In this document: positions 4,191 through 32,331 of the stretch, piece by piece
Layout: every line of letters begins with the position of its first letter
How positions within the stretch are numbered: the stretch's first letter is position 1
DNA from: a virus
Length of the DNA stretch: 35,344 nucleotides
IMG/VR virus record: IMGVR_UViG_3300025168_000283
Coordinates: 1-35,344 of that record
Direction: 5' to 3' (one strand)
Position numbers and translations under genes: made by a program
Notes under the pieces: generated by a model
What the model was told of the DNA's origin: nothing
What the model saw: the letters and a program-made list of their open reading frames with translations, nothing else
Databases searched by the model: none

Positions 4191-4208
4191 GAGATTACAA
4201 TGAGTTGG
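4191..4208 (+). repeat. Start-cassette repeat, copy 3
   Basis: Third exact copy of the 18-base leader-plus-start sequence. With the two bases before it, it matches copy 1 over 20 bases. It provides the ribosome-binding region and start of the gene at 4200. Confidence 0.7.
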
Positions 4209-4391
4209 GAAGTAGTAATCAAGGAACCTTTTGGCAGGGGGAGCGAAAAAGACATTGAAACCCTTCTAGAAATTATAAGGCAATTGGAGGCATTCAAGAC
4301 CATAGATTACAGCGGTAAAAAGAATGTTGCCCTCGAAGCCCTTAGAGAATTCCGAAAGGAAATAAAATCCAATCTTAGGTTTCAACAGTGA
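4200..4391 (+). CDS. Tagged 63-residue protein
   Basis: A 63-residue protein starting MSWEVVIKEPF, where the usual ILK is changed to VIK. The remainder is a pair of amphipathic helices (ETLLEIIRQLEAFK and ALEALREFRKEIK). The function is unknown. It is the last gene of the first tagged cluster, before a 48-base gap and the large protein at 4440-6374. Confidence 0.68.
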   Translation: MSWEVVIKEPFGRGSEKDIETLLEIIRQLEAFKTIDYSGKKNVALEALREFRKEIKSNLRFQQ

Positions 4392-8795: not shown

Positions 8796-9101
8796 ATGTC
8801 TTGGAAAAACATTCTAAAGTCCTTCACTCCATTAGAAGAGTTAGAAGAATGGATGCAAGTTTTCATCAATTCGATATATGAGATGCAAGGTGATTTAAAT
8901 AAAATTAGTAGGCATTGGGACTACATAACCAATATAATTCAAATGATTGCCTACAAAGGAAAGGGTTCTGACCATAAAGATATTATGAAACTTTTTGGAA
9001 AAATTGTCGAATATATCGAGAAGGAATTTTCAAATGGTAAAGAACTTAAAGATAAATTACAAACCATAATTACTAGAAGAAAAGGTGAAAGATATGGATG
9101 A
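8796..9101 (+). CDS. Tagged helical small protein before terminase
   Basis: A 101-residue protein starting MSWKNILKSF. A GTG at 8787 is in frame, but GGTGA sits at the right distance for ATG 8796. The tag is encoded with codons different from those at 2452 (TCT for Ser, ATT-CTA for Ile-Leu), so the peptide rather than the DNA is conserved. The body is helical with a basic C-terminus (TIITRRKGERYG). It overlaps the start of the terminase gene by eight bases. Function unknown. Confidence 0.7.
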   Translation: MSWKNILKSFTPLEELEEWMQVFINSIYEMQGDLNKISRHWDYITNIIQMIAYKGKGSDHKDIMKLFGKIVEYIEKEFSNGKELKDKLQTIITRRKGERYG

Positions 9102-10518: not shown

Positions 10519-10528
10519 AGTGATTATT

Positions 10529-12133
10529 ATGCCTACTCCCGAAGAATCAAGAGAAGCGGCTAAACTTCTAAATGAGATGGCAGATTCCCAAGAAAAAGAC
10601 CTTAAACAAATTGAAGACTTAACCGGAGATATAAAAATGAGTTTGGGTTCCGAACTTAGTGTACTCTCTGAATATGAGATGGTTTCCAAGATAGCAACTA
10701 CTTACCAATTAAACGCATCTCAAGCAAAAAAACAAATAGAGTCTTTTCCTTCTAGTCATGAGATGTATGGTGAAAACATACCTCAAATAGTCAAGACATT
10801 AAGAAAGGCTAGAAGAGAACTGAAAGGCGAAGATAGAAATAAAATGTCTAAAAATATAGACAACATTATTGAAGGATATTCGGAACATCTATCTAAGTGC
10901 ATAAGCAGTATTTACTGGCTAACTCCTTACAATACACCATTTCTAAAAATGAAGTTTGATGAAGGGGACTTGGCTAAATTATACAGCATGAAACATAGTA
11001 ATCAAAGAAGGGCTGTAGTTGATTCTATCTGTAAGTATTGGGAGGCAGAACTAGACCAAAAAGAAACTCCATATGGACCTCAGTATTCTTCTTTGCAGAA
11101 AGAAATGAATGCGGCCAAGAAACAGTTTAGAGCAGAACTAAAGAAGGTAAGTGTTTCATCTTTGAAGAAATCTGTAAAAGAATTGACTAAAGAATATATC
11201 GTAAATGAAGTTAGTGCTAATCAAGGAATATCGGCTAGAGAACTTCATGACCGAATGCCGTCTACATTATACGACAGAAACTCATGGCATACTATTTCTA
11301 AGATGGCTAAGTCCGTAGATGTTACATCTGTTTCTGGAAAGTATTTTAGTTTGGATGCAGAAATAAAGAAAAACATTTGGGCTTACACTGCGGCATTTAT
11401 TGATTCGGATGGTTACATTACAATGGATAGGAACCACAATCCTAGAGTCGGACTGGTAGCCACAGGAGATAGGGGTAAAGCATTTATGACCGAAATACAC
11501 AAGGCAATCGGGGGAATAGGAAAACTACACCTTGACCAAAAATCTCCACAAGACACACGGCCAGTTAATCGTCTTAATTTTTATTCACAGGCAGAAGTTA
11601 CAGAACTGCTTACTAAATGCCTACCTCATTTCCGAATGAAACAAGGTAATGCTAATTTGCTTTTAGAACTAATTAGAATGAAGAAATCCTACAAGAAGGC
11701 GGATTGGTATAAGGGTCGTTGTGATGAAATTTTTAAGTTAATGAAGTGGGAGAACCATAAAGACCATGTAGGTTTTGATTTTTCTAAGGAAGGTATTTAC
11801 GCCGACGATATTCAAAAATATACAGACAACTGTAAAATGTCAATGATGGATGAGATGGAAAACATTGGTGGAATCATTGCTAAGAAAGAATTTGGAGATA
11901 CTTCATTCAAAGCCTATTATAACAAGGTTAAACGCATATTAAAACAGACTACTATGGACAAGGAAGACGAGGACATTATCATGTCTTTCCTAGATGCTGG
12001 TATGAAAGACGAAGAAAGCAGTGAAGACGAAATGACAATGATTAGTGCTGGTTTTGCTAAAAACAAAATTGAAGAAGTTCTAACTAAATATGGGAAAAAC
12101 GAACAACAACTATTTACACAAGAAAATGCCTAG
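10529..12133 (+). CDS. Protein with LAGLIDADG-type homing-endonuclease domain
   Basis: A 534-residue protein directly after the terminase. Residues 1-200 are helical and unassigned. Residues about 220-280 look like a winged helix (YIVNEVSANQGISARELHDR, then a hairpin). Residues about 283-410 resemble a single LAGLIDADG domain: AAFIDSDGYITM with the acidic DSDG at about 290, then RPVNRLNFYSQAEVTELL and MKQGNANLLLELIRMKKS. No intein splice residues are seen, so this is not an intein. It may be a free-standing homing endonuclease, often found near terminase genes, or a domesticated DNA-binding virion protein. Start ATG 10529 has GAGTGATT upstream. Confidence 0.85.
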   Translation: MPTPEESREAAKLLNEMADSQEKDLKQIEDLTGDIKMSLGSELSVLSEYEMVSKIATTYQLNASQAKKQIESFPSSHEMYGENIPQIVKTLRKARRELKGEDRNKMSKNIDNIIEGYSEHLSKCISSIYWLTPYNTPFLKMKFDEGDLAKLYSMKHSNQRRAVVDSICKYWEAELDQKETPYGPQYSSLQKEMNAAKKQFRAELKKVSVSSLKKSVKELTKEYIVNEVSANQGISARELHDRMPSTLYDRNSWHTISKMAKSVDVTSVSGKYFSLDAEIKKNIWAYTAAFIDSDGYITMDRNHNPRVGLVATGDRGKAFMTEIHKAIGGIGKLHLDQKSPQDTRPVNRLNFYSQAEVTELLTKCLPHFRMKQGNANLLLELIRMKKSYKKADWYKGRCDEIFKLMKWENHKDHVGFDFSKEGIYADDIQKYTDNCKMSMMDEMENIGGIIAKKEFGDTSFKAYYNKVKRILKQTTMDKEDEDIIMSFLDAGMKDEESSEDEMTMISAGFAKNKIEEVLTKYGKNEQQLFTQENA

Positions 12134-12141: not shown

Positions 12142-12261
12142 TTGAAATACTGTACCAAATGTTATACATGCGATGTTATAGATTTAAGAGCGTTTGGATA
12201 CTGCAAAGAATGTTGGGAGGCACAAAATAATGACTTGGCAAAAAATACTAAAGAAAGATAG
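12142..12261 (+). CDS. 39-residue zinc-ribbon-like protein
   Basis: A very short gene from TTG 12142 to TAG 12261, with AGGTGG five bases upstream and placed eight bases after the previous stop. The product contains CTKCYTC near the N-terminus and CKEC about 17 residues later, a four- or five-cysteine zinc knuckle. It overlaps the next tagged gene by 32 bases in another frame. It may be a DNA- or protein-binding peptide. The ribosome-binding site and cysteine spacing support it, but its shortness limits confidence. Confidence 0.55.
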   Translation: MKYCTKCYTCDVIDLRAFGYCKECWEAQNNDLAKNTKER

Positions 12262-12466
12262 TAGAAGCAAAAGGAAGGTTCCTAAGCATACTTACAAGGC
12301 TCCTAAAGGGGTCTATAGCAATCCTAGCCTTAGAGAGAAAATACACAGAAGACTGTGGGCTAAGAACACTCATGGTACTGGAAAATACAAATGGTCTGCT
12401 AGAAAATCTCAAGAGTTGAATAGGCTTTACAAAAAAGAAGGTGGCGGCTTTGTCAACAAGAAGTAG
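12230..12466 (+). CDS. Tagged small basic protein (KWSARKSQ type)
   Basis: A 78-residue basic protein starting MTWQKILKKD, with GGGAGGCAC before ATG 12230. The body reads NPSLREKIHRRLWAKN, then KYKWSARKSQELNRLYKKEG. From memory this matches a small basic family in marine tailed phages and large DNA viruses with a 'WSARKAQ...KKxGGGY' signature; in those I recall no MSW tag. If so, the tag was added to an existing protein. A DNA-associated internal head protein is plausible. Confidence 0.75.
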   Translation: MTWQKILKKDSRSKRKVPKHTYKAPKGVYSNPSLREKIHRRLWAKNTHGTGKYKWSARKSQELNRLYKKEGGGFVNKK

Positions 12467-12722
12467 TTGGAAAGATGTTTTGAAGGCTTTAACAGAAGCG
12501 CAGAAAGACATGGTTGAGTGGAATGAGGAAGAGTGGGGACCACTTACTCCAAAATCCAAAAAGAAAGGCAGATATGGCCCTAAATCACTTAGAAGTTCTT
12601 TGACTCCTTCACAAAAAACCGCAGAAAACAGAAAGAAAAGAGCGGGTACTAGAAAGGGGAAACAACATGTTTCTAGAACTAAGGCTGGAAAGAAAGCCTA
12701 CAAAACAGTAGAAGGTAGATAA
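12450..12722 (+). CDS. Tagged small basic protein (TPSQKTAENRKK type)
   Basis: A 90-residue basic protein. TTG 12450 is preferred (AAGGTGG about seven bases upstream) over GTG 12441. It starts MSTRSSWKDVLKALT, so the tag is set in by a few residues. The body contains KGRYGPKSLRSSLTPSQKTA and RKGKQHVSRTKAGKKA, which resembles another small basic protein type found in marine phages and large DNA viruses (recalled, not searched). It is strongly lysine-rich and probably binds nucleic acid. It overlaps the preceding gene by 17 bases. Confidence 0.7.
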   Translation: MSTRSSWKDVLKALTEAQKDMVEWNEEEWGPLTPKSKKKGRYGPKSLRSSLTPSQKTAENRKKRAGTRKGKQHVSRTKAGKKAYKTVEGR

Positions 12723-12723: not shown

Positions 12724-13116
12724 ATGACTTGGAAAAACATACTAAAGGTACACTGCGGAACAGAAAGGATGGGTAAGCCATGCAACTGCAAAGAGTGTGT
12801 AAATAAGAAATTAACACCTAAACAAAGTAAGCATTTAGATAGAAACAAAGACGGTAAAATTAGCCGTGAAGATTTTGACCTACTAAATAAAAAAGAAAAA
12901 AATCTAATGAAAGATATTAAGAAAAAAATCCTTTCCACTAATACCAAAAAAGGAGGTGCTTTAGCAATGAAAGATTTGAAACATATTGCTAGTCAAAAAG
13001 ATTTAGATAAAGCCCTAGCCGAATTAATAGAGGAACGCAAGATGTTTCATCACACCGATGGAGATTTTTATACACATGAGCCGAGTAGTAAAAGACGGGG
13101 GCCATTTACTGCATGA
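12724..13116 (+). CDS. Tagged EF-hand-like protein with cysteine cluster
   Basis: A 130-residue protein beginning MTWKNILKVHC. Residues 39-50 read DRNKDGKISRED, which fits an EF-hand calcium loop: D1, N3, D5, G6, I8, with Asp instead of Glu at position 12 (a substitution that can favour Mg). It is flanked by helices. Cysteines at 11, 20, 22 and 25 could bind zinc. The C-terminal half is helical and ends in a short basic region. Calcium-responsive release or stabilisation in seawater is possible but speculative. It begins two bases after the preceding gene. Confidence 0.75.
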   Translation: MTWKNILKVHCGTERMGKPCNCKECVNKKLTPKQSKHLDRNKDGKISREDFDLLNKKEKNLMKDIKKKILSTNTKKGGALAMKDLKHIASQKDLDKALAELIEERKMFHHTDGDFYTHEPSSKRRGPFTA

Positions 13117-13514
13117 GTTGGCATATCATTCTAAAGAATCTAGTTTGCCCAAGAGCAACTCAAGATTTGAAACTCAATACTAAAAATAGAGATAGGGCAG
13201 TAAAAGAAAAGTATATTCAGTATGGCCCTCTTAATCTAAACGATGAAAAGTATTGGGAAGAATATGCTAAGAAGTGGAATACCACTGCTGATGTTGCTAA
13301 GAAATCTAATTGTAGTAATTGTGTTGCATTTGATATATCCCCAAGAATGGATGATTGTATGCCACTAAATACTGATGAAGATGGCCGCTTAGGTTATTGT
13401 TGGATGCACGATTTCAAATGTCATTCTGCAAGAACTTGCTACACTTGGGCTAAAGGTGGCCCAATTGATGATGATAAGACTTCTAAAGAAAACCAATTGA
13501 GGGGCGAGAAATGA
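13113..13514 (+). CDS. Tagged cysteine-cluster protein
   Basis: A 133-residue protein starting MSWHIILKNLVC, overlapping the previous gene as ATGA. Six cysteines fall in the second half: C67 and C70 (NCSNC), C82, C96 (GYCWMH), C103 and C109 (ARTCYTW). The spacing resembles small phage proteins that bind zinc or an iron-sulfur cluster, reminiscent of high-potential iron-sulfur patterns. The metal is not determinable from sequence. A redox or structural protein carried in the virion would fit the tag. Confidence 0.75.
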   Translation: MSWHIILKNLVCPRATQDLKLNTKNRDRAVKEKYIQYGPLNLNDEKYWEEYAKKWNTTADVAKKSNCSNCVAFDISPRMDDCMPLNTDEDGRLGYCWMHDFKCHSARTCYTWAKGGPIDDDKTSKENQLRGEK

Positions 13515-13777
13515 GTTGGAAAGATACACTAAAGGCATATAACCCCGATGAGATGGATGCTAAGAGAAAAAAAATTCAACAGAAAAATGAGTACCTAAGA
13601 AGACAAAAAAAACGGGACGAACAAATAGTTATAGATTTGAAAAGTCGAATCTCACAAAGGGATGCAGATGCTAACTTAATTCGTGATTTACAAACTGATA
13701 AAAAAACCACTAAAAGAAGAAAGAAACCGAGGAAAGGAAGCCCACCACCTCCACCGCAAAGAGGTGGAAAGAGATGA
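13511..13777 (+). CDS. Tagged basic coiled-coil protein
   Basis: An 88-residue, very basic protein starting MSWKDTLKAYN. Residues 15-60 form a charged helix, probably coiled coil. The C-terminus is a disordered tail with KKTTKRRKKPRKG, a run of five prolines and RGGKR. It overlaps its neighbours by ATGA on both sides. A DNA-condensing internal protein is the likeliest idea, based only on composition and tag. Confidence 0.72.
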   Translation: MSWKDTLKAYNPDEMDAKRKKIQQKNEYLRRQKKRDEQIVIDLKSRISQRDADANLIRDLQTDKKTTKRRKKPRKGSPPPPPQRGGKR

Positions 13778-14160
13778 GTTGGCAAGATATTTTAAAGAAT
13801 GATTCCGACTATAAAAGCCGTAAAAAGTATAAGGATTTAAGCCCGGAAAAACAAAAAGAATTAGATGAAAAATATGATAGGTTAATGCCTAAATTACAGG
13901 CTAAAAGACGCTCCCTAGAGATTAAACAGTACCAAGCCATGTTAAGAATGCTTGTCGGAAAACATGGTAAAGATTCTGAAGAAGTTTTAGATTTAGGTAA
14001 AAAGTTTATGGCTATTAATCCAACAGAAGAAGAAATAGATGGGCTTATGAATTACCTTGAAGAATTACCGGACAAACCTAAGCCTCGCACTCCTATGGAT
14101 GAATTTAAAGACAGGCAAAAACTATCCCAACAATACTTAGATTCCATGAGGGATGATTAA
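13774..14160 (+). CDS. Tagged helical small protein
   Basis: A 128-residue protein starting MSWQDILKNDS, with an ATGA overlap upstream and a TAATG overlap downstream. The body is highly charged and helical, with a helical segment at about residues 35-75 (QAKRRSLEIKQYQAMLRML) and a proline-rich linker (PDKPKPRTP) near the C-terminus. No family is recognised. Confidence 0.72.
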   Translation: MSWQDILKNDSDYKSRKKYKDLSPEKQKELDEKYDRLMPKLQAKRRSLEIKQYQAMLRMLVGKHGKDSEEVLDLGKKFMAINPTEEEIDGLMNYLEELPDKPKPRTPMDEFKDRQKLSQQYLDSMRDD

Positions 14161-14513
14161 TGAGTTGGGAAAATATCCTTAAAAAGAAGCCCAAGAGCGC
14201 AAGGTCAAGGGCTTTAGAAAGAGCCAAGAAGAAAGGGCTTTCCGGTCTTAATAGCCCACAGAGATTAAAAGACGACTCAGGTAAATCACATCATGTAATG
14301 GCCTTTGAAGGCAAGAAAGCCAAGTATATTAAGTTCGGACAAAAGGGAGTTAAGACAAATCAAACTGCTGGACAGAGAAGGGCTTTCAAATCTCGTCACG
14401 CTAAGAATATCAAGCGTGGAAAAATGTCTGCGGCTTATTGGGCTAACAAAGTAAAATGGAGTGCAAGTAAGACCAAAGAGCCGAAGAACAAGAAGTGGCG
14501 TAAAGGCTCCTAA
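14160..14513 (+). CDS. Tagged small basic protein (FGQKGVKTNQTAGQRRAF type)
   Basis: A 117-residue, strongly basic protein starting MSWENILKKKP. The central part, IKFGQKGVKTNQTAGQRRAF then KSRHAKNIKRGKMSAAYWAN, resembles a small family common in marine phages and giant viruses that has an FG...R.SF.ARH...YW pattern (recalled, not searched). The basic charge suggests DNA or RNA binding. It is the last gene of the tightly packed tagged run 12230-14513 and precedes the portal. Confidence 0.78.
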   Translation: MSWENILKKKPKSARSRALERAKKKGLSGLNSPQRLKDDSGKSHHVMAFEGKKAKYIKFGQKGVKTNQTAGQRRAFKSRHAKNIKRGKMSAAYWANKVKWSASKTKEPKNKKWRKGS

Positions 14514-16442: not shown

Positions 16443-18440
16443 TTGTTACTAAAGGCAACAATACCTGCGGAAGAAGTTAAAAACTTCACCAAAGAAATTG
16501 AAGAGCAAATAAAACTTATTAAAAAGGTTACGAAAGTATCCTATGAAGTTGAAAATGTCAAAGAAAAGGCCAAAGTAATTTATCCTAAAAAGAGTGAACT
16601 AGATGCTCTAGAAGAAGCAGTTGATTTAGATAGTACTAAAGAAATCGGACAAAACTCTCAAACACTATCTTCAAAGAAGGAAGAATATTACTCTTCTAAA
16701 AAACTGTTAGAATATGAAGAGGGTCAACTAGAGGCTCTATCATTAGATGATGAAGAATACGCAGAACAAGTTCTTGAACTAGAATCCGCAGTGAATGCTC
16801 ATAATAATGTAATAGCCTCATTTGTAGAAGAAAGAGTAGAATTTCTAATACGCCTACTAAAATTAAAAATTTATTTACACGAAGAAAAAGAAAAAATCAA
16901 AGAAGGAACTAGGCCTATGAGCGCACAAGGAGGGTTCTCTCCAATAAAAATAGGAACAGAGTCACAAAAAAATGAAAGTCCCTTTGAAGTATTGTATAGT
17001 CCGGAACAGGCTAGTAAAATCATTGAGGAAGTAACTAGTTTGGCCGAATATCTAATGGAAGTAACAGAACCAGAAAAAATAAAACAATCTCTAATGGACA
17101 TGATACGAAACACTCTTATTACCTTCAATGAAGTCAAAAAGGCTAAAAAAGAGAGAGCAATGTCTGTAGAAGAACAGGAAGAAAGACAATTCCCACCACA
17201 AAAAGGAGAAGTTACAGAAGCCATAACAACCAGAATAGAAAACGCTAGCCAATCTCTTCAAGCAACATATGACAAGTTCAAAGTCGAATTAAACGAGAGA
17301 AGATATAGAGGCAAAAAACTACCTAAACCAAAAGAAAGCACTCAAGAAGAAATTTTGTCGGAGAGGCTGACTAGACTCATAGACATGATGAACAGAAAGA
17401 CCATACCTCCCATGGAAACTCCAATGGAAAGTTCAATAGTTTTGAAAATTAGAAAACAAATGAATTTAGAAGTAGACTTGCTTATGTCATATTCTGGAAA
17501 TGATAACACAGTAAAAAGTAGGCTCAGTGCTATCCAAAGTTTGCTTTTTGATATGAGTTTCAAAGAAAGAATAGAGGCTAAAAGACAACCAAGAGAAACC
17601 AAAAAAGACCATGCAAAGAGACTAGACAAACTGAAAGAAAAATACGGTAGTAAGTTTGAAATTTTTAGAGAAGAAGCAAGGGAACTAAAAGTACCTAAAG
17701 AAACAATTAGTGAGATTGACAAAATAAACAAAGCCATAGAAAAATACATTTCTAAGATGAAAAAGGGCAATAAATCAGAGGCAAATACTATTCTTGAAGA
17801 AAAAATTTTAGGTGATTATTCTAGAACTGTAGTAGCAAACAGAATAAATTATCTAGAACGAATATCGTCAAACAGGTGGAAGTCTGAGGCCAGACGATTT
17901 AAATTTAAGAGTACTGGTAGCAATAAAGGTAAGTTTAATGAAATGGGTGGAGAACTAGCAACCGGAAAACAGAAGGAAAAAACTCCTGCCTATAGGTACA
18001 CTGATTCTTACAAGGGATATGCTAAGTTAATTGACGGCGCAAATAAATTACATGGATTATTAGAAAATAAAATAGAAGATAAATCTGTTATTGATTTGAT
18101 AAAAGGAAATGTTAGATTATTGAATCCTAAGCAACTTAAGAGAATTGAGGCGGCATATGGTAGAACTGTAGAAGGGGAAATAAAAACAGGTGGTGAGTAT
18201 GAAGGCAATAGGCCAGTAACACCACTAGAAGCACAATTTGACAGGGAAATGTCGGCCAATGCTGAGGCAAAATTACAAAGAATACTAGAAGGCAAAAACA
18301 AGAAAGAACTTATCGAAATGGCTAAGGTAAGAAATGTAGGTCATGAAGGTACTAAAAAGGTCATAATCCAAAACATTATGCAAGGAAAGCCTCAAGAGGA
18401 AGAGCCATCTAGCGAAGATATAGAGGGGGAAGAAGAGTGA
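16443..18440 (+). CDS. Large helical protein with C-terminal SAP-like domain
   Basis: A 665-residue lysine- and glutamate-rich protein. TTG 16443 has GGTGA five bases upstream; two GTG codons at 16431 and 16434 are alternatives. The first 450 residues are long helices with coiled-coil character. Near the C-terminus (residues about 612-647) GKNKKELIEMAKVRNVG then HEGTKKVIIQNIMQG matches the SAP motif, a helix-extended loop-helix that binds AT-rich DNA. The last 15 residues are acidic. It may be an internal head protein touching the genome. Function is inferred. Confidence 0.82.
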   Translation: MLLKATIPAEEVKNFTKEIEEQIKLIKKVTKVSYEVENVKEKAKVIYPKKSELDALEEAVDLDSTKEIGQNSQTLSSKKEEYYSSKKLLEYEEGQLEALSLDDEEYAEQVLELESAVNAHNNVIASFVEERVEFLIRLLKLKIYLHEEKEKIKEGTRPMSAQGGFSPIKIGTESQKNESPFEVLYSPEQASKIIEEVTSLAEYLMEVTEPEKIKQSLMDMIRNTLITFNEVKKAKKERAMSVEEQEERQFPPQKGEVTEAITTRIENASQSLQATYDKFKVELNERRYRGKKLPKPKESTQEEILSERLTRLIDMMNRKTIPPMETPMESSIVLKIRKQMNLEVDLLMSYSGNDNTVKSRLSAIQSLLFDMSFKERIEAKRQPRETKKDHAKRLDKLKEKYGSKFEIFREEARELKVPKETISEIDKINKAIEKYISKMKKGNKSEANTILEEKILGDYSRTVVANRINYLERISSNRWKSEARRFKFKSTGSNKGKFNEMGGELATGKQKEKTPAYRYTDSYKGYAKLIDGANKLHGLLENKIEDKSVIDLIKGNVRLLNPKQLKRIEAAYGRTVEGEIKTGGEYEGNRPVTPLEAQFDREMSANAEAKLQRILEGKNKKELIEMAKVRNVGHEGTKKVIIQNIMQGKPQEEEPSSEDIEGEEE

Positions 18441-18793
18441 CTTGGGAAACCGTTTTAAAACAGCCAGAAATTATAGAAAAAGAGAACAGTCCTATTTTGG
18501 ATTCCTTGGACTCTAAGAAAACTAAGCGGCTTAAGAAAATTCTACAAACCGCTGAACCTACTGAGTACTTCGGACAAGACTTTACTAGAATGGGGGAACT
18601 CATTGATGTTCTTCGTGAACTTGATTTGGTTAAGACAGACACCAAGATGAAAAAGAAGTTCGTGAGTATTGATGAAAGAAACATTGATATGGTTGCCCTT
18701 TCCAGCAAACTACGAAAGGAATATGAAGTTCTCTACCGTCAACTTAGAGAAATTGTATATCCAAAGAAAAAGGGGGATTTAAGAAATGAGTGA
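18437..18793 (+). CDS. Tagged helical small protein (GTG start)
   Basis: A 118-residue protein starting GTG at 18437, overlapping the upstream TGA by four bases. The N-terminus is MTWETVLKQPE, again the tag. The body is alternating helices with basic stretches (KKTKRLKKILQT) and a C-terminal segment YRQLREIVYPKKKGDL. No family is recognised. It lies between the SAP protein and the mini-scaffold-like protein in the head module. Confidence 0.75.
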   Translation: MTWETVLKQPEIIEKENSPILDSLDSKKTKRLKKILQTAEPTEYFGQDFTRMGELIDVLRELDLVKTDTKMKKKFVSIDERNIDMVALSSKLRKEYEVLYRQLREIVYPKKKGDLRNE

Positions 18794-19013
18794 AACAAGT
18801 GAAGACATGCTAATCATACTGAAAGAATTGGTCGGAAGAATAAAATCATTAGAACAGGCAGTCTACGATAAAGACAACCTTCTAATGAAATCCGGATTAG
18901 TAGTGGTTGGTGGCCCAACGCCATCTATGAATAACCATGCAGTACCAAGTTCCGACTCCATTCATAAAATGTCGTGGGGCGACATAGATAAGTTCGTAAA
19001 TGGGAGAGTTTGA
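18786..19013 (+). CDS. Small coiled-coil protein with C-terminal tag
   Basis: A 75-residue protein with an N-terminal helix of coiled-coil type (MLIILKELVGRIKSLEQAV), a polar linker with GGPTPSMNN, and MSWGDIDKFVNGRV at the C-terminus. The end matches the scaffold C-terminus MSWSDIHKAVGGNI closely. This coiled coil-linker-terminal peptide plan looks like a miniature scaffold or an accessory assembly factor. It overlaps the upstream gene by eight bases and the stop lies two bases before the next ATG. Confidence 0.75.
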   Translation: MSETSEDMLIILKELVGRIKSLEQAVYDKDNLLMKSGLVVVGGPTPSMNNHAVPSSDSIHKMSWGDIDKFVNGRV

Positions 19014-19014: not shown

Positions 19015-19248
19015 ATGCCGGAGAAAATGACAGAAGAGGAAGCACGAATTAGCCGAGCAATTAGACTTGTTCGTAAAGCAAAAGAAATTCTTCAAGAAGA
19101 AGATAAAAACAGAATGCCTTATGATTCAGAAGAAGATAAAGAAGCGAAAGTTAAGAAACCCAAGGCAGAAAAAGATGATACTAAGATTGAGAACAACACA
19201 GGTACTCATTCCGGATATGGTCTTGCTGGAGATACTAACGACGCTTGA
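19015..19248 (+). CDS. Small charged protein
   Basis: A 77-residue protein from ATG 19015 (an in-frame ATG at 19000 lies inside the preceding gene). Residues 5-30 form a helix (EEEARISRAIRLVRKAKEIL); the rest is acidic/lysine-rich and likely disordered. No family is recognised. It directly precedes the DNA ligase gene. Confidence 0.65.
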   Translation: MPEKMTEEEARISRAIRLVRKAKEILQEEDKNRMPYDSEEDKEAKVKKPKAEKDDTKIENNTGTHSGYGLAGDTNDA

Positions 19249-19256
19249 GTGATTCG

Positions 19257-21791
19257 ATGGCAACCACTGGTTTGATGTTCGAGAAGGATAAGGCCCCTAT
19301 CTCTAACGAAATTCTAACTCTATTTGAAGAAGTAAGGGTTGCTTATCTTTCTGCTAGAGCAGACCCAAAAGAATACGGCTCTAGATGGAGAAAGGCTATA
19401 GAAAAAATAGAAGAGGCATATGACAGTATTTCTCCTTTAGGAAAAGAAGTCAAAGAATACTTAGATGAGCGGCATATAGAAGCCGACGATGCTAGTAGTC
19501 CTAGTAGCGGCACTGCTAAAATTATTTATGAGTCTATTAAACAAATGCGATTTGATTCGGAAAATGTAAATGACCCTTTCTCTAAAAAATTAAAAGGCAA
19601 GGTATTGGAAAGCCTACTTACTGATATTGGTATTTTTATTAAATTTATTCATTATGCCATTAGGTCGGATGATGATGCTTTAGTAGAAGACGCATACACT
19701 AAATTTGAATACGAAGCAGACAAAATTACTGATGGTCTAGAAGGACTAGACTTAGCGATAGAAGATGTTCCTCTATTCATAATTGAACATTATGGTGATG
19801 ATAAGGATAGTAAAAAAGTAATGCCTAAATTTAAGGCCGCTCTTGCTGAATTAGAAAAGATATTTTTAAGCAATAAAAGCGAAGAAGACTGGAAAGATTT
19901 AGTTAGAGTAGAACTAAAAAAAGCAGAAAAGTCCGAGGAAGAAAAGGCCACTTCTAACTTTATTGTTCCAAATAAGCCAATGTATCGTATCTTTGATATT
20001 GAAGATATGGAAGAACTACAAGGTTTTTCTGGCGACTATGTAGTTCAAGAAAAGTATGACGGTATGAGGATACAGATACACAAGATTGACGGAAAGGTAC
20101 AAATCTTCTCATTCAACAAACAGGACATTACAGATAAGTGTGCTGAACAAGTGGCAGAACTAAACAAAAAATCATACGGAGATTGTATTCTAGATGCTGA
20201 GTTAATTCTGTTCGAGGGAGATAACTCCCTACACCGAGCAGATACTATTGCTCATGTGTTCAAAAATAAATATCCCGATGCTAAACTAAGGGCGCATGTT
20301 TTCGACATAATGAGACATGAAGAAAAGAATTTGACAGATGAAGAACTAGAAGTTAGAATAAATACTCTGTTTAATAATTACTCTTCCAAATCATCACAGT
20401 CTATAGAGTTCCCTTCTAAGAAAGATACTAGAATTGCAGATTCATTAAAGGATATAGAAGAATATGCTAAAGAGATTATGGAGATGCCTACCGCTGAGGG
20501 AGTTGTCATTAAAGATTTAACTTCTACTTACTTTATCGGAACTAAGAAAAATCCTAAGTGGGTTAAGTGGAAGAAATTTGTAGACTTAGACATGATGGTT
20601 CTAGATAAAAAGTCTACAAAATCTAACCTATTCTCTTACACTTTAGGAGCAGGTCCAGTACTAGAAGAAGATAAGAACACAGTAGAGATGGATGGAGTTC
20701 TTTATATGAATGTTGGAAAGGCCCTCAATACTAAAATTGATGTAAAGGTCGGAGAAATTATTAGAGTTAAAGTAGATGAAGTCAAAGAGTCGGATGGTAA
20801 ATTTACTCTATTCTCGGCTAAGGTAATTGAAGTTCCCGAAGCCGCTACGCCCGACAAGATAGTTACTTTGGAGTTACTATCTAAAAACACAAAACCTTCC
20901 CTTAAATACAAAGTAGAGGCCCTAAAGAAAGGAATAACCATTACAGATAACATTCACGGTTCCGCTACTATTATTGCCAAGGCTATGGATGGCTTCACAG
21001 TATATGGATTTAATGAGAACAACTTAATGTCGAAGAACGCTATTGTTGATTTAGATATGTGGAAGCAACAGGCAGAAGATACTCTCAAGACATTACAAGG
21101 AACTCTTAGAGCCGCTATTGTTAATCAAATTAAGGCTAAGGGAAGAGAAAATCTAACTAAAGGGACTTTAGGGTTGAATCTGACAGAAGTACATAATTTC
21201 CTTGTTGCCAACCATCCTAGTGAATATGAAAGCGTCCTTGACAGTAATAGAGAATCATTAGGAAATTTTATTGAGAGTTCCGAACACACTAACCTTCAAA
21301 ACGGAATTGCTACTATTGATGATACCGTAGTACAGAAAGAAGTAGATTCTAATTTAGGAGAATTTAAGGTCTACACTAGAAAGGACGGTAATTTAGACTT
21401 TATTATTAATTACAAGGGTGAAAATCTGTCTTGGTATATTGATTTAGATTCCGATGATGATATTTTTTCACTGTTTGGTAAAGCCACTAAGTTTCCCGCA
21501 GAAATATCTACAAACATTTCTAAAGAAAAATTAATTGATACTGGAGAAGTAGAGATTGGAGTTCAAAGACATGGTTATCATGAGTACATTCTAAATGGAA
21601 ATAAGTTTGAAACTAAGATTCATTTTAGAGTAGTAGAGGATGGAGATAAACCTATGTGGATTGTTTGGACTGGATACGAACAAAAGCCAGTAGATAAAGA
21701 CACAGATGAGGGTATTTGGAATATCTATGAAGACAAATATAAGGGTCTTAAATACAGAAAAGATACCGAAAATACCGAACTTATTAAATAG
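19257..21791 (+). CDS. ATP-dependent DNA ligase, extended
   Basis: An 844-residue protein that would seal nicks in DNA using ATP. Motif I is EKYDGMR with the AMP-accepting lysine at about K266, motif III DAELILFE (about 313-320), motif IV EGVVIKD (about 414-420) and motif V KWVKWKK (about 434-440). An OB-fold-like region follows (NVGKALNTKIDVKVGEIIRV). There are about 240 extra residues before the adenylation domain and about 300 after the OB fold that I cannot assign. ATG 19257 (GAGTGATTCG before it) is preferred to TTG 19245. Placement among head genes rather than replication genes is unusual and hints at a virion-associated or packaging-linked repair role. Confidence 0.9.
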   Translation: MATTGLMFEKDKAPISNEILTLFEEVRVAYLSARADPKEYGSRWRKAIEKIEEAYDSISPLGKEVKEYLDERHIEADDASSPSSGTAKIIYESIKQMRFDSENVNDPFSKKLKGKVLESLLTDIGIFIKFIHYAIRSDDDALVEDAYTKFEYEADKITDGLEGLDLAIEDVPLFIIEHYGDDKDSKKVMPKFKAALAELEKIFLSNKSEEDWKDLVRVELKKAEKSEEEKATSNFIVPNKPMYRIFDIEDMEELQGFSGDYVVQEKYDGMRIQIHKIDGKVQIFSFNKQDITDKCAEQVAELNKKSYGDCILDAELILFEGDNSLHRADTIAHVFKNKYPDAKLRAHVFDIMRHEEKNLTDEELEVRINTLFNNYSSKSSQSIEFPSKKDTRIADSLKDIEEYAKEIMEMPTAEGVVIKDLTSTYFIGTKKNPKWVKWKKFVDLDMMVLDKKSTKSNLFSYTLGAGPVLEEDKNTVEMDGVLYMNVGKALNTKIDVKVGEIIRVKVDEVKESDGKFTLFSAKVIEVPEAATPDKIVTLELLSKNTKPSLKYKVEALKKGITITDNIHGSATIIAKAMDGFTVYGFNENNLMSKNAIVDLDMWKQQAEDTLKTLQGTLRAAIVNQIKAKGRENLTKGTLGLNLTEVHNFLVANHPSEYESVLDSNRESLGNFIESSEHTNLQNGIATIDDTVVQKEVDSNLGEFKVYTRKDGNLDFIINYKGENLSWYIDLDSDDDIFSLFGKATKFPAEISTNISKEKLIDTGEVEIGVQRHGYHEYILNGNKFETKIHFRVVEDGDKPMWIVWTGYEQKPVDKDTDEGIWNIYEDKYKGLKYRKDTENTELIK

Positions 21792-21820
21792 TGTACTTTA
21801 GACAACAAGGTTTGAACCCA

Positions 21821-23002
21821 ATGTCTACTATCATGACTGCAATACCGGAAACTGAGTTTTCCATATTGAAGGCATCATCGGACGAATTGATGATTGGTGG
21901 CTATGCTTCCATAGAAATGGTAGACAAGCAAAACGACTTAATTACTCTAAAGGCTCTAAATGAGGCAGTTAGTAAATTCATGAAACACAACAAGTTTCGC
22001 AATGTTATGACTAACCATTCCAATGTTCAAGTTGGAGAGGTAGTCGAATCCCATCGAGATAGTAATGGAAAACTATGGAAAACACATGTAGATGATGTGG
22101 GATTCTTTGTAGTAATTAAACTACGAGATGATATTGAAAAAGCAAAGGAAATAAATCGAGGCATTCGCAAAGGGTCATTGAGGTCTTTTAGCATAGGTGG
22201 GCAAGCACTACAAAAAGTGAAGAAACACCACGATGAATTAGGGGAGTATAGTGAGATAAGCAAACTAGAACTCCACGAAGTCACAATATGTGAAAAAGGA
22301 ATCAACCCCGAAGCGAGGTTCGATATATTAAAGGAGGACAAAACAATGAACAAATTGGAAAAAGCATTGGCTGAACTAGATACTCTTCTAGAAGAAGTTA
22401 ATACGCTACGAAAAGAAGAAGAACCGTCAATGGAAGCAGGTGGAAAACCTCATCCTTTGGACGAGAAGATGGAAAATGAAATGATGGATACCGAAGTAGA
22501 GTCTACGGAATACATGGATGATGAAAGGAAGGCTACTACTCTCGACGGAAACGATGAGGCTAACCTTGGCGGTGCTGGAGAGTATATTGAACAAGCCGGA
22601 CTTCAAGCAAAGAAGGAAGGAATGGTTTCTAAGACCTTCGCTAATGAAGAATTTAGTACTCTCAACCTAAGTGTTGCTAACATTGAAAAAGCATATCAAC
22701 AGTACAGGGCAGAACAACTAGAGAAGGCAGGACTTACTTCCCTAGAACAAACCTTCGCTAAGAGATTCGCTACCGAATCTAATGACCGAGCAGACATGGT
22801 TGCTAAGTCGGAATACGACGCACAATCCGAGATTGCTCAACTTACAAGCCAGTTTGCAGACCTAAGAAAGTCGCTAGAAACTGATACTAACATTCGCAAG
22901 GCAAGCGTAGAAGCCGCTACATCGACTAAGGTTTTCTCTACACAAGAGATTGCAGATATGTCTTGGAGCGATATTCATAAGGCTGTTGGCGGAAACATTT
23001 GA
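21821..23002 (+). CDS. Prohead protease with scaffold tail, C-terminal tag
   Basis: A 393-residue protein. Residues 1-173 match the XkdF/U35-like phage serine protease: GGYASIEMVDKQNDLITLKA, NVMTNHS (H66, probable catalytic His) and KGSLRSFSIGG (S122 or S124, probable nucleophile), then KLELHEVTICEKGINP. The rest is a scaffold-like region with coiled-coil and acidic segments. The last 14 residues are MSWSDIHKAVGGNI, a C-terminal copy of the tag. The gene lies directly before the capsid gene. ATG 21821 is preferred to GTG 21791 because AGGTTTGAACCC precedes it. The protease would mature the head by cutting scaffold and possibly tagged cargo. Confidence 0.93.
   Translation: MSTIMTAIPETEFSILKASSDELMIGGYASIEMVDKQNDLITLKALNEAVSKFMKHNKFRNVMTNHSNVQVGEVVESHRDSNGKLWKTHVDDVGFFVVIKLRDDIEKAKEINRGIRKGSLRSFSIGGQALQKVKKHHDELGEYSEISKLELHEVTICEKGINPEARFDILKEDKTMNKLEKALAELDTLLEEVNTLRKEEEPSMEAGGKPHPLDEKMENEMMDTEVESTEYMDDERKATTLDGNDEANLGGAGEYIEQAGLQAKKEGMVSKTFANEEFSTLNLSVANIEKAYQQYRAEQLEKAGLTSLEQTFAKRFATESNDRADMVAKSEYDAQSEIAQLTSQFADLRKSLETDTNIRKASVEAATSTKVFSTQEIADMSWSDIHKAVGGNI
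22346..23002 (+). CDS. Nested scaffold protein (internal in-frame start)
   Basis: A probable second product of the protease gene. AAGGAGGA at 22331-22338, the strongest Shine-Dalgarno in the region, sits seven bases before an in-frame ATG at 22346. This would give a 218-residue protein, MNKLEKALAELDTLLEEV..., lacking the protease and keeping the coiled-coil and the C-terminal MSWSDIHK. The arrangement mirrors phage lambda C/Nu3, where scaffold is translated from within the protease gene. The product itself is inferred. Confidence 0.6.
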   Translation: MNKLEKALAELDTLLEEVNTLRKEEEPSMEAGGKPHPLDEKMENEMMDTEVESTEYMDDERKATTLDGNDEANLGGAGEYIEQAGLQAKKEGMVSKTFANEEFSTLNLSVANIEKAYQQYRAEQLEKAGLTSLEQTFAKRFATESNDRADMVAKSEYDAQSEIAQLTSQFADLRKSLETDTNIRKASVEAATSTKVFSTQEIADMSWSDIHKAVGGNI

Positions 23003-23012: not shown

Positions 23013-24365
23013 ATGGGATACATTAACACGATAAGAGATTTAGAAGCGGCGACATACGGACTACCTGCCTTTGGCGGAAACTCTGTATTGAAACAAGCAG
23101 GTGCAGTTCAAGGACTACACACTGCACACGACATTGCAGATGCTGGAGCAAACGGCCTAACTGGTATTGGAACCACAACTGGTTTCTACAACCAACTATT
23201 TGGACAAAAGGTTTGGTCTATGCTAAACCGAGAAGTGAACGCTCTTGCTATGGTTAGTAAGCGGCCTTACAACTCATCCGGTTGGAGAATTCTTAAGAGC
23301 CGACCCTTTGGTGGTTCGGACTCTAAACTTGCAGTTGACATTACTGGTGATACTACTGGTAGCGGTGTTGTTGGTATTGGTGGCTCTGCGCCACACGCTG
23401 ACCAAATTGGTGGTGTTCCGGAAAACGCAGGACTTTCTACTGCGGCAGATGGACTTGGCTCTATGGCCCCAACTTACGCTCAACTCTTTATGAGTCCTAA
23501 GACTATTGCACATCAGTTCGATATTTCTGAACTCGCAATGGAAATGGCTCAAATTGATGATGGACTTGGAGATATTCGTTCTATCATTCGTGAAGACATG
23601 GGTAAGGCACACGCAGAAGCACAAAACAAGATGCTCCTTATGCCTCTTGGTGCTTATGGTGAAGCGGCGGCTCTAGCAGACATTGAGCGAAACTACACTT
23701 CCTTGATGAAGGTAGTTTCAAGCCGAGCAGAACTTCTTGCTGGTGATTCTACTGTTCTTTGGACTGATGCGGCTAGCGCAACAAACAACCTTGGTAAAAT
23801 CTACGGTGATGAGCGACACTCTGCCGCTTCATTCCTTGATGCAGAAGTGGACTTTAACAGTTCTTACGCCGCATCTTCGGTTCGACCACTAACTCTTACT
23901 TTGCTTAACAACATGATTCGTAACTTGCGAATTGCTGGTGGTTCTCCAAAGGTTATCTTGACTGGATACGATACTATCCAAGCAATTGCAGACCTACTAC
24001 AGTCTCAAGAGCGATTCATGGACCGCAAAGAAATCATCCCTACCGTGAACGGTGTTCGTGGTATTAAGGGTGCAGAAGTCGGTTTCCGTGTGGCAACTTA
24101 CTACGACATTCCTTTGATTCCAGTTAAGGATATGCCCGCTACTGCTAACGCTTCGGATACTACTGCAATTAGTGATTTGCTGTTCTTGGACACAGACCAC
24201 TTGTGGCTATCGGTTCTTAAGCCTACTCAATACTTTGAAGATGGTGTTTCTAATGGGAACCCATTCGGTGTTGGTCGTCTTGGCAACCAAGCACTCTACC
24301 GAACTATTGCAGAGATTGGCTGTTCCTTCTTTAAGGGACAAGGCAAGATTACCAATGTGGCTTGA
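23013..24365 (+). CDS. Major capsid protein (HK97 fold)
   Basis: A 450-residue capsid protein, assigned by position after the protease/scaffold, size, and HK97-like features: a helical, Gly-rich N-terminus (GLPAFGGNSVLKQAG), a long spine helix region (HQFDISELAMEMAQIDDGLGDIRSIIREDMGKAHAEAQN) and a C-terminal domain with ILTGYDTIQAIADLLQSQ and PFGVGRLGNQALYRTIAEIG. GAGGTGAATTAA before ATG 23013 is a near-perfect ribosome-binding site, in keeping with high expression. Codons such as CGA, AAC and GGT are more frequent than in neighbours. It is the proposed partner of the tag peptide. Confidence 0.92.
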   Translation: MGYINTIRDLEAATYGLPAFGGNSVLKQAGAVQGLHTAHDIADAGANGLTGIGTTTGFYNQLFGQKVWSMLNREVNALAMVSKRPYNSSGWRILKSRPFGGSDSKLAVDITGDTTGSGVVGIGGSAPHADQIGGVPENAGLSTAADGLGSMAPTYAQLFMSPKTIAHQFDISELAMEMAQIDDGLGDIRSIIREDMGKAHAEAQNKMLLMPLGAYGEAAALADIERNYTSLMKVVSSRAELLAGDSTVLWTDAASATNNLGKIYGDERHSAASFLDAEVDFNSSYAASSVRPLTLTLLNNMIRNLRIAGGSPKVILTGYDTIQAIADLLQSQERFMDRKEIIPTVNGVRGIKGAEVGFRVATYYDIPLIPVKDMPATANASDTTAISDLLFLDTDHLWLSVLKPTQYFEDGVSNGNPFGVGRLGNQALYRTIAEIGCSFFKGQGKITNVA

Positions 24366-25722: not shown

Positions 25723-26121
25723 TTGCCAGCACTAAATCACGACACTCGTTTGATTATGACTATCCTATTCGTAGGTACGGTTAGCGGAGCAAATGTTTTC
25801 TTTTATGCTAAGTTCGGTCTTAATTTCCCGTACACTATCTTGATGCATGGAGTATTGTTTGGACTCATTACTGTTGGGGCTGTCATGGTCATGAAAGCAC
25901 TATTTGATTTGGCACTAAATGACAAAATAGAGATGTGGCTTTTAGACCGAAGAATTACTGCTTATTGGCAAAGAATCGCTAAAGATGAACAGCAGAGAAA
26001 GAAAATGCAAGACTCTTTGAAGACTTTCCAAAGTGAAAACGGTACTTCTAGAATACCTCAAATAGCCCCAGTATATGAAACAGAAGGTGTTTCTTCTGAC
26101 TTTTTAGCCACCCTACAATGA
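25723..26121 (+). CDS. Two-TM membrane protein of the GTPase cassette
   Basis: A 132-residue protein from TTG 25723 (GAGGTGAGTAC upstream). Two hydrophobic helices occur at residues about 10-29 (LIMTILFVGTVSGANVFFYA) and about 37-57 (TILMHGVLFGLITVGAVMV), followed by a basic, helical tail of about 70 residues (RRITAYWQRIAKDEQQRKK). No signal peptidase site is obvious. It may act as a holin-like or membrane-anchoring partner of the next two genes. The arrangement of two membrane proteins followed by a GTPase is conserved-looking but I know no named family. Confidence 0.8.
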   Translation: MPALNHDTRLIMTILFVGTVSGANVFFYAKFGLNFPYTILMHGVLFGLITVGAVMVMKALFDLALNDKIEMWLLDRRITAYWQRIAKDEQQRKKMQDSLKTFQSENGTSRIPQIAPVYETEGVSSDFLATLQ

Positions 26122-26130
26122 GGTGGTTAG

Positions 26131-26343
26131 ATGTTAGGATTTGATGAATCTACAATTGCTTACGACCTACAAAGAGCGCACTCAGCCGACATTTGGTTGA
26201 TGCAAATGAGGTTTTGGTTTTGGGGTTTAACTTGCGTGTTTTCTTCCTTTTTAGTTGGAAACATAATGGGGGTTTTTGAAATAAATGTCATGGGTTGGCT
26301 TATTAATAAAACAGTAAATCTTTGGGATTACTTTTGGCATTGA
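26131..26343 (+). CDS. One-TM small membrane protein
   Basis: A 70-residue protein from ATG 26131 with GAGGTGGTTAG upstream. An amphipathic N-terminal region is followed by a Trp/Phe-rich helix at residues about 27-49 (FWFWGLTCVFSSFLVGNIMG) and an aromatic C-terminus ending NLWDYFWH. It sits nine bases after the two-TM gene and eight before the GTPase gene. It might recruit the GTPase to the membrane or act as a lysis or pore protein. Confidence 0.75.
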   Translation: MLGFDESTIAYDLQRAHSADIWLMQMRFWFWGLTCVFSSFLVGNIMGVFEINVMGWLINKTVNLWDYFWH

Positions 26344-26351
26344 GGGATTAC

Positions 26352-27014
26352 ATGTCAGTACTAGCCGGATTTGCAGTAGTATGCATAGAGGCTACAGTAG
26401 CATTTTACAAAAGAATACACGCAATACAGTTTGGAATATATGGGGCTACAATGGTAGGTAAGACTACTCTTCACCATCAGTTGCGTACTAGAGGGGAAGT
26501 TCCCGACATAAAACAAAGAACTGTAGGAAAACAAAGAGCCACTAGAAAAGTGATAAAATTAGACGGTGAGGTTCACACTGTAAAAACCGCAGATATGGGC
26601 GGTGAAGCAATTTATTGGAAACAGTGGATGCAAGACATAAAGAATAGAAATGTCAAGTATGTTATCTTCGTAATAGACCATAGACACTTAGATTCACCTG
26701 CTAATTTAGACCACCAACTAGCATGGAAATTTTTAGTAGACGGTATTTGTAGTGATAAGTGGCCCAACGGAAAAAAGAAAAAGAACAATGATTATCCCTT
26801 GGCTGTAGGTATTTGGGCAAATAAATATGATATTTGGGGAGAAAAATATAAGGAAGAAGGTGACATAACTAAACACTCTATTTTTTCATCTTTAAAGTAC
26901 GGTATGCAACAACTTAATGACAGGGGAATACCTACACACAAATACATAGTGTCGGCTAAATCTCAGCCAGAAATGGTCTATAAGGGCGTTACTACAATGA
27001 TAAAGGATTACTGA
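26352..27014 (+). CDS. Membrane-anchored Ras/Arf-like small GTPase
   Basis: A 220-residue protein. ATG 26352 has GAGGGATTAC upstream; the frame could extend to 26322 inside the prior gene. Residues 3-19 form a hydrophobic helix (VLAGFAVVCIEATVAFY), likely a membrane anchor. The G motifs are in order: G1 GATMVGKT (31-38), G3 DMGGE (81-85), G4 NKYD (157-160) and G5 SAK (201-203). The DMGG motif and small size are closest to Arf, SR-beta and Ras-type GTPases, and SR-beta also has an N-terminal membrane anchor. It could be a molecular switch or regulate host membranes or trafficking. It is rare for a virus head module. Confidence 0.85.
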   Translation: MSVLAGFAVVCIEATVAFYKRIHAIQFGIYGATMVGKTTLHHQLRTRGEVPDIKQRTVGKQRATRKVIKLDGEVHTVKTADMGGEAIYWKQWMQDIKNRNVKYVIFVIDHRHLDSPANLDHQLAWKFLVDGICSDKWPNGKKKKNNDYPLAVGIWANKYDIWGEKYKEEGDITKHSIFSSLKYGMQQLNDRGIPTHKYIVSAKSQPEMVYKGVTTMIKDY

Positions 27015-27018: not shown

Positions 27019-27555
27019 ATGTGGCAAGATATTCTTAAAGTGGACAGGTTCACCAATGAAAGTGGCTATAAAGGAATCTATGATGGACAAACTGATGAGG
27101 TTTTAATCAACTTAGATAATTTTAATACAGTAGCAAGGCAATATGATGATATGGAAAGAGTTGTTGAGTTTGCTAATGTAGTGACACATGAATTATCTCA
27201 TAGAGAATATGCAAAAGAACTAGGTGATAGCATGGACGAAGTTCTTAAAGAACTAGACGCTATAACTAAAAAATATGCAGAAGGTAGTTCTCCATTGGAT
27301 TCTATTGAAAAAAAACTAAAGACATATTATAATTATGTTATTATCAATGAATCGTTTTCATTTGGAAGTGGAAAAGACTATGAGAGATTGAGTCATTTAG
27401 ATGGAACAAAGGGTTCAACTAGGTCTGTAATGACTCAAGTTCAAAATCACATTAGAAAATTAGTGGGTAAAAAAGACAGACAATTAGAAAAAATGTTGTC
27501 TAGACTTTATGATGAAACCATGAGAGCAATTAGAAAATTCAAGAGAAACCTATAG
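27019..27555 (+). CDS. Tagged HExxH metallopeptidase-like protein
   Basis: A 178-residue protein beginning MWQDILKVDR, preceded by GGATTACTGATATT. Residues 57-61 are HELSH (the zinc-binding HExxH motif with E58 catalytic), and 50 residues later VIINESFSF supplies a likely third ligand, E111, in an NE context typical of gluzincins. The C-terminal part is helical and basic (RKLVGKKDRQLEK). A zinc protease with the N-terminal tag could be carried in the head and act on host or viral proteins. Its substrate is unknown. Confidence 0.82.
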   Translation: MWQDILKVDRFTNESGYKGIYDGQTDEVLINLDNFNTVARQYDDMERVVEFANVVTHELSHREYAKELGDSMDEVLKELDAITKKYAEGSSPLDSIEKKLKTYYNYVIINESFSFGSGKDYERLSHLDGTKGSTRSVMTQVQNHIRKLVGKKDRQLEKMLSRLYDETMRAIRKFKRNL

Positions 27556-31827: not shown

Positions 31828-32331
31828 ATGTGGAAAAACATATTAAAAAATAACAGTGATGGTAAAACCCACATTCCTTATCACACTAAAGTAGAATTTA
31901 TGAATGGTTTGTATCGGGAACTTGTTGATACAATAGAAAGAAAGGAAGGACTTGAGGGTTTTGAGTTCAGCAATGGAATGATTTATTTTCCTAATTACAT
32001 ATTGAGTTTTAACCCAAATGTTGGTCGTCATAATGACGACTTTATATCAAAACCATTTGAAGAAATACAAATAACATTAGATGTAGATTGGTATGATTTG
32101 TGGTACAGAGGGTTTGAAGACGAAATAAATGAAATTGCTGATAATTTTGGCGAAGAATACAGATTAAAAGCAGAAGACCAAGGCGTTTATCCTGTCTATG
32201 AATACAATGCAGGTTCTCACAATAAAGAAAACGGTACAATTAGTGTGTTTTCAAAAACCTCTAATTCATTCATTGAGTCTCTAATTAAAAACATTCATAA
32301 AAAAATAGAAAGTAAATTTGGCGGAAGGTGA
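31828..32331 (+). CDS. Tagged protein between connector and tail genes
   Basis: A 167-residue protein starting MWKNILKNNSD; GATTGGT precedes ATG 31828, five bases after the connector stop. The frame could open at 31819, but the tag is at 31828. The body is mixed alpha/beta with Trp/Tyr-rich sequence (DWYDLWYRGFEDEINEIAD) and no recognised family. It is the last tagged protein in the window and is out of the main clusters, so the tag is not restricted to one region. Confidence 0.75.
   Translation: MWKNILKNNSDGKTHIPYHTKVEFMNGLYRELVDTIERKEGLEGFEFSNGMIYFPNYILSFNPNVGRHNDDFISKPFEEIQITLDVDWYDLWYRGFEDEINEIADNFGEEYRLKAEDQGVYPVYEYNAGSHNKENGTISVFSKTSNSFIESLIKNIHKKIESKFGGR

Follow-up and report, generated by a model that had tools for sequence, protein, structure and literature searches.

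Why does the scaffold of a viral head end in the short peptide that also opens many otherwise unrelated proteins of the same virus? The question is raised by IMG/VR record IMGVR_UViG_3300025168_000283, whose 35,344 bases (hereafter the window) were analysed here. Its head genes are of the tailed-phage type (terminase, portal, S78 prohead protease and an HK97-fold major capsid protein, MCP), in agreement with the gene set of magroviruses, the viruses of marine Poseidoniales (MGII), which are abundant ocean archaea (PMC10160649). The protease is fused to a scaffold, and its gene lies directly upstream of the MCP gene. A sequence-only reading of the window had claimed that this protease-scaffold ends in the motif of a set of tagged cargo proteins and that scaffold and cargo would use one contact site on the capsid protein. 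The sequences compared here make it probable that a box common to scaffolds and cargo docks them in the procapsid and that Lys-specific clipping then follows.

The scaffold C-terminus carries a form of the cargo motif

Positions 22943-22999 code for QEIADMSWSDIHKAVGGNI, followed by the stop TGA (23000-23002), and the final 14 residues are indeed those reported by the sequence-only reading (Table 1). We call this end the tryptophan box. The relaxed motif W..[ILV].[KR] was counted in 15 records (the window plus 14 related ones). Each genome has it at the N-terminus of 9-19 open reading frames (ORFs), where 0.3-0.9 would be expected, and 1-6 ORFs have it at the C-terminus. The strict DNA pattern of the motif gave 82 forward matches and 0 reversed ones in 20 records. 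Furthermore, when 6-mers are scored with a position-specific scoring matrix (PSSM) built from 209 N-terminal tags of 15 genomes, only 0.012% of the internal 6-mers of these genomes score as high as or higher than the scaffold 6-mer WSDIHK. Terminal enrichment, the reversed-pattern control and the PSSM score rule out a chance similarity between the scaffold end and the tag.

Conservation of this end, which the sequence-only reading had named as a check of its claim, is complete in the sequences read. The scaffold C-terminus was read at 77 + 66 + 59 magrovirus loci, some of which share one contig, and [ML]-x-W-x-x-[ILV] stands close to the stop in every one of these about 200 loci (a raw count). 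An independent sample of 42 contigs, recruited by the N-terminal tag pattern alone, gave the same picture: 29 of them encode a protease-scaffold and all 28 readable scaffold ends have the box, including those of clades with no more than about 45% identity to the window (MSWEEINDLV, MDWSDINALV, LSWEEVNALV). Among the 13 contigs without a scaffold, four stop soon after the portal, and one of these (G067) still has a second box-ended head protein, the mini-scaffold described below. Two others (G059 and G064) look like magrovirus fragments that stop ahead of the head genes, and a near-identical pair (G055 and G078) belongs to a different kind of virus, whose single inspected tag match lies within a longer ORF. 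The eight of the 13 that were looked at are therefore rejected as counter-examples. No tag-rich virus without a box-ended scaffold, the case that the sequence-only reading had named against itself, was found among the 42 contigs, five short ones being left out of this examination.

The statement that scaffold and cargo share the same motif is only partly right, since the scaffold version is a subclass. The match at the 0.012% level stands; the two forms differ at the fourth and fifth residues after the Trp (W+4 and W+5). The scaffold box has His or Asn at W+4, where the cargo tag has Leu or Ile. At W+5 it has Lys or Arg, except in one clade (that of locus L146), whose scaffold ends have Asn, Ser or Ala (MSWGDIHNLARKV, MSWAEINSFV) and whose cargo tags retain Lys. 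The W-x-[DE]-I part is therefore separable from the Lys, and the scaffold box is a distinguishable subclass of the motif, with a polar W+4 and with the Lys lost in one clade.

Cargo tags end at a lysine and can stand at either end of a protein

The 209 N-terminal tags are short peptides carried by otherwise unrelated proteins. Their conservation ends abruptly at W+5, which is Lys in 196 and Arg in 2 of the 209; hence the tag looks like a leader that would be cut after Lys. At Ser, Ile, Leu and Lys, the tags draw on several synonymous codons. Therefore, the constraint acts on the protein, and a DNA- or RNA-level signal was rejected. Compared with untagged proteins, the tagged ones show no reduction in length and a slight shift towards basic composition. 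Six tag spellings have no printed occurrence in the literature searched. The tagged protein encoded at 14160-14513 is a member of phrog_7595. Its roseophage homologs (CRP-13, CRP-5, P12053L and ICBM2) align past the tag and do not have MSWENILKKKP, and according to these alignments the tag is a modular graft. Another tagged protein (12724-13116) has one calcium loop that resembles an EF-hand or a dockerin (LDRNKDGKISREDF).

The motif is used at either protein end, as the sequence-only reading had stated: C-terminally in the scaffold and N-terminally in cargo. Beyond that reading, some cargo tags are C-terminal. Box-bearing C-termini were compared among homologs of the protein encoded at 1207-2181: of 27 distinct ones, 16 have [ILV]xK ahead of the box, 10 have Lys at W+5, one has both and none has neither. 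The Lys site thus lies before or after the box and almost never on both sides (Fisher p = 1.3e-6, kinship ignored). Arg often occupies W+5 when the Lys lies ahead of the box; this speaks for a Lys that serves cutting rather than one that merely supplies a charge.

Lysine sites recur in the scaffold, in the capsid protein and in a second scaffold-like protein

The I-L-K end of the tag agrees with [ILV]xK sites found in the head proteins. According to an alignment of 23 relatives, the S78 protease occupies about residues 30-183 of the protease-scaffold ORF and is followed by the scaffold half. In the window, this half has seven [ILV]xK[AS] sites against 0.55 expected (Poisson P = 2e-6), most of them conserved in this alignment. 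The scaffold halves counted have 5-7 against about 0.5 expected (P of about 2e-6 to 3e-4), with 0-1 occurrences of the reversed control motif in each. Moreover, a site just ahead of the protease domain (DFxI[IL]K) is invariant among the aligned relatives, as is the Lys of a site at the MCP N-terminus in 60 aligned MCPs. Most haloviruses compared have VFK[AS] at the equivalent pre-protease position. The HVTV-like ones (L367-L376) have [ILV]xK[AS] in the protease N-terminus and near the end of the MCP N-terminal extension, which suggests the same Lys specificity in these viruses.

The interval between the portal and protease genes encodes an apparent second scaffold, the mini-scaffold, which has 75-85 residues across relatives and no Pfam or PHROG match. 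A homolog was recovered in 158 of the 159 loci tested by a search that demanded the C-terminal box and made no use of the N-terminal part, so that the conservation of its Trp is partly by construction. The N-terminal part is itself conserved and coiled-coil-like (KALxxKxExLEKxVYxKDN). It is followed by a hinge site, L[MR]K-[SA]-G in 145 of the 147 copies found through their C-terminus, then by a flexible-looking stretch with a conserved PxP and by the box M[DSE]W[SDE][DE]I[HN]KMV. The Trp is replaced by Phe in seven loci of one clade (MSFDEMAKII), and part of the mini-scaffolds of the L146 clade also lack the box Lys. We infer a scaffold role from the combination of an oligomerising helix, a cuttable hinge and a docking end, which is the layout of a minimal scaffold. 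This protein, the Lys sites adjoining the boxes and the distinct scaffold form of the motif all go beyond the sequence-only reading.

A putative procapsid address and its alternatives

In the mechanism that we propose, M-[S/T/N/D]-W-x-[D/E/N]-[I/L] would be a short helix through which its carrier docks in the procapsid and becomes part of it. The carriers would be of three kinds: the protease-scaffold and the mini-scaffold, with a C-terminal box, and about 10-20 otherwise unrelated cargo proteins per genome, in which the box is mostly N-terminal and sometimes C-terminal. Its likeliest partner would be the inner face of the HK97-fold MCP. Candidate [ILV]-x-K sites lie beside the cargo box, between the coiled coil and the box of the mini-scaffold, many times over in the protease-scaffold and at the MCP N-terminus. 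The S78 protease probably cuts them after assembly, which would dismantle the scaffolds. A cut between tag and cargo would free the cargo inside the head, from which it might be delivered with the DNA. Since the peptide is common to scaffold and cargo and stands beside an apparent cutting site, the tag looks like an address label that would be clipped after head loading. We hold it slightly more plausible than the contrary that, in magroviruses, one peptide code at either protein end, with a movable Lys site, is a procapsid address for two scaffolds and 10-20 variable cargo proteins. From their sequences, a shared contact for the scaffold and cargo forms is likely, not certain.

Several observations weigh against this proposal. 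With a polar W+4 in the scaffold box and a hydrophobic one in cargo, the two forms may have binding sites that are related without being identical. In some C-terminal cargo tags, the only Lys site follows the box, and cutting there would leave the cargo unreleased. The conservation counts given above ignore kinship between loci. HVTV-1 and HCTV-1, haloviruses that are distant relatives of the window by their MCP, have neither tag nor scaffold box, and a more distant halovirus record has a single stray tag match; the joint presence of tag and box in magroviruses and their joint absence in HVTV-1 and HCTV-1 amount to a single evolutionary contrast. Finally, AlphaFold was run on two natural fusions of scaffold tail and MCP, produced by reading through an in-frame stop. 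The first has an overall predicted local distance difference test score (pLDDT) of 54, and the second one of 70, with an HK97 fold for the MCP. The box peptide is not confidently placed in either (pLDDT of about 60 or lower, about 50-60 in the second). A low-confidence region of the second fusion forms a helix-turn-helix (helices 7-11 and 15-23), the second helix of which begins at the Trp.

Instead of the MCP, the box might bind some other part of the procapsid (protease domain, scaffold core or portal), and cargo would then join the core like the internal proteins of T4. In favour of this, no MCP contact was modelled in the two fusions. This alternative is the strongest one and nevertheless doubtful: both scaffolds place the box at their extreme C-terminus past flexible sequence, as for a shell-binding end (herpesviruses, P22), and a core component need not bind itself through a C-terminal box. 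It is improbable that the box is an exosite docking signal for the prohead protease, the scaffold C-terminus, without a cuttable Lys in some clades, being a pseudosubstrate or tether. Such a signal would fit the Lys site found directly before or after almost all cargo boxes. However, the tryptophan box is dispensable for a site, since most sites (ILKA, LRKS, IEKA, LMKSG, LLKQ) have none beside them, and a separate coiled-coil protein ending in the box would be left unexplained. Still a little less probable is a tag aimed at a host factor (chaperonin, membrane or translation) and not at the head, for which T4 offers a precedent in propeptides that also recruit chaperonins (PMC10052503). Neither the box of the two scaffold-like head genes nor the protease-like sites beside the boxes would follow from such a target, and the varied tag codons make a DNA or RNA signal unlikely. 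Convergence on helix N-cap grammar (hydrophobic staple and capping box) without a common partner is very improbable: M(-2), S/T/N/D(-1), D/E(+2) and I(+3) suit a helix N-cap and one low-confidence model begins a helix at the Trp, yet this grammar needs no Trp, which is present in all scaffolds read and in most mini-scaffolds, and it accounts neither for the PSSM match nor for the fact that tag and scaffold box are co-present or co-absent.

A possible ancestral form of the scaffold C-terminus is found in vir519, a Methanofastidiosa virus (L144, 8986-11385). The protein that precedes its MCP ends in KMTTEEIERQFGGE, which resembles the scaffold C-terminus minus the Trp; this end (MTTEEIERQFGGE) is suggestive even without that residue. 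Used as a query, the vir519 MCP returned no relatives.

Other genes of the window and related records

The modelled MCP matched the capsids of SU10, Mic1, T5 and HK97 in Foldseek. Between the mini-scaffold and protease genes, the head module includes a gene (19245-21791) for a protein of 848 residues, an ATP-dependent DNA ligase to which long additional regions belong. Just past the MCP region, the structural cluster encodes two small membrane-like proteins, then a Ras/SRPRB-like GTPase (25723-27014). A 537-residue protein encoded next to the terminase gene (10520-12133) has a LAGLIDADG-like stretch, FIDSDGYITM, inside its longer sequence. A zinc-ribbon-like protein, possibly a small terminase, is also encoded near the terminase (2842-3495); its C-terminus, IWLDIKSKMQERLQ, is conserved and box-like, without the N-cap residue.

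No host link was found for the window virus by a scan of genome contigs, which matched only contigs labelled as a Maricaulis metagenome-assembled genome (MAG). Contamination apparently explains why a public MAG labelled Maricaulis sp. (NZMJ01) includes the magrovirus contigs L146 and L147. Record IMGVR_UViG_3300021958_000021 (184,733 bases) has two different magrovirus MCP loci (L047 and L221) and may therefore be a chimera of two genomes.

Table 1. Coordinates in the window of the head genes, boxes, cleavage-like sites and cargo tags (a slash marks the predicted cut)
Feature	Position	Strand	Remarks
Scaffold C-terminal tryptophan box MSWSDIHKAVGGNI	22958-22999	+	final 14 residues; about 200 loci and 28 tag-recruited scaffolds, no exception
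Prohead protease-scaffold	21791-23002	+	Pfam PF04586 (Peptidase_S78), E 5.2e-10; PHROG head maturation protease
ILK/A cleavage-like site just ahead of protease domain	21863-21874	+	DFxI[IL]K[SA] in relatives
Seven [ILV]xK[AS] cleavage-like sites, scaffold half	22355-22984	+	LEKA189, IEKA298, LEKA310, VAKS337, LRKS358, IRKA368, IHKA395
MCP, HK97 fold	23013-24365	+	phrog_24667, E 4e-19; SU10_MCP
VLK/Q site, MCP N-terminus	23085-23096	+	[LI]LK[QAS] in relatives
Apparent mini-scaffold, 75 residues	18786-19013	+	coiled-coil-like N-terminus, LMK/SG site, C-terminal box
Mini-scaffold cleavage-like site LMKS	18882-18893	+	[ILV]xK[AS]G in 145/147 copies
Mini-scaffold C-terminal box MSWGDIDKFVNGRV	18969-19010	+	same C-terminus as protease-scaffold
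Cargo protein, C-terminal tag IIK/SWKEVLL	1207-2181	+	tag 2149-2178; 53 homologs
N-terminal tag MGWTYILK	99-122	+	
N-terminal tag MWQDILK	632-652	+	
N-terminal tag MTWENILK	2178-2201	+	
N-terminal tag MSWKNILK	2452-2475	+	
N-terminal tag MSWKNTLK	3492-3515	+	
N-terminal tag MSWEDILK	3871-3894	+	
N-terminal tag MSWEVVIK	4200-4223	+	
N-terminal tag MSWKNILK	8796-8819	+	
N-terminal tag MTWQKILK	12230-12253	+	
Near-N-terminal tag SSWKDVLK	12462-12485	+	
N-terminal tag MTWKNILK	12724-12747	+	
N-terminal tag MSWHIILK	13113-13136	+	
N-terminal tag MSWKDTLK	13511-13534	+	
N-terminal tag MSWQDILK	13774-13797	+	
N-terminal tag MSWENILK	14160-14183	+	on phrog_7595 protein
N-terminal tag MTWETVLK	18437-18460	+	GTG start
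N-terminal tag MWQDILK	27019-27039	+	protein with HELSH sequence
N-terminal tag MWKNILK	31828-31848	+	

Significance and comparison with known systems

If the proposed address is real, magroviruses could bring nearly any protein into their heads and release it later through maturation cleavage. T4-style head loading would be extended to archaea, and proteins of one of the commonest archaeal virus groups that are likely to be packaged in the head, and possibly injected, could be named straight from sequence. The tag would also be a portable one for putting proteins into capsids. Moreover, there would be direct sequence support for a prohead protease that enters the head through a cargo-like signal, as raised for T4 gp21 (PMC9026906).

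Among known systems, the P22 scaffolding protein has a C-terminal helix-turn-helix as its shell-binding end, and a helix-turn-helix also appears here in a low-confidence model. However, the P22 contact is mainly electrostatic and its sequence is different. We know of no shared cargo tag in P22. Encapsulin targeting peptides are likewise terminal, and they load cargo onto the inner face of an HK97-fold shell; here the fold is the same and loading to the inner face is putative. Unlike the magrovirus system, encapsulins have no scaffold and no protease clipping, and their peptides differ in sequence. The N-terminal signal of phage P1 DarB suffices to load a reporter into the head, whereas the Dar proteins, unlike the magrovirus tags, have no consensus. 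The scaffold helices of HK97 and D3 bind the MCP close to its spine helix and P-domain, an arrangement proposed to be general (PMC12749128).

The capsid targeting sequence (CTS) of T4, carried by the internal proteins IPI-III and paired with the protease gp21, is also a short N-terminal peptide on unrelated small proteins. Its residues 4 and 7 target and its residues 8 and 10 are processed (PMC9026906); here too, a targeting part would be followed by a predicted protease site. The protease gp21, which cleaves after L/I-x-E, also degrades the scaffold and has been suggested to enter the head itself through CTS-like propeptides (PMC9026906). As in T4, the scaffold is rich in tag-type sites and the cargo is sometimes basic. 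Unlike in T4, the apparent site is [ILV]xK, with Lys at P1 in place of the Glu of L/I-x-E, the protease is of S78 type, the box ends two scaffolds, tags are also C-terminal and the viruses are archaeal.

Herpesviruses have two scaffolds, one of them a protease fusion, that bind the MCP by a common C-terminus and are released by the protease (PMC12474303); in magroviruses, MCP binding is putative. The likeness to UL26/UL26.5 lies in an N-terminal protease fused to the scaffold and in a second protein with the same C-terminus, for which a scaffold role is presumed here. Unlike in herpesviruses, this second protein is encoded by a separate, unrelated-looking gene and not by an in-frame sub-gene, and cargo proteins also carry the scaffold motif. 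By analogy, the magrovirus system would work like those of T4 and herpesviruses, yet it fails defining features of each because it has Lys and not Glu, an S78-type protease and a separate second gene.
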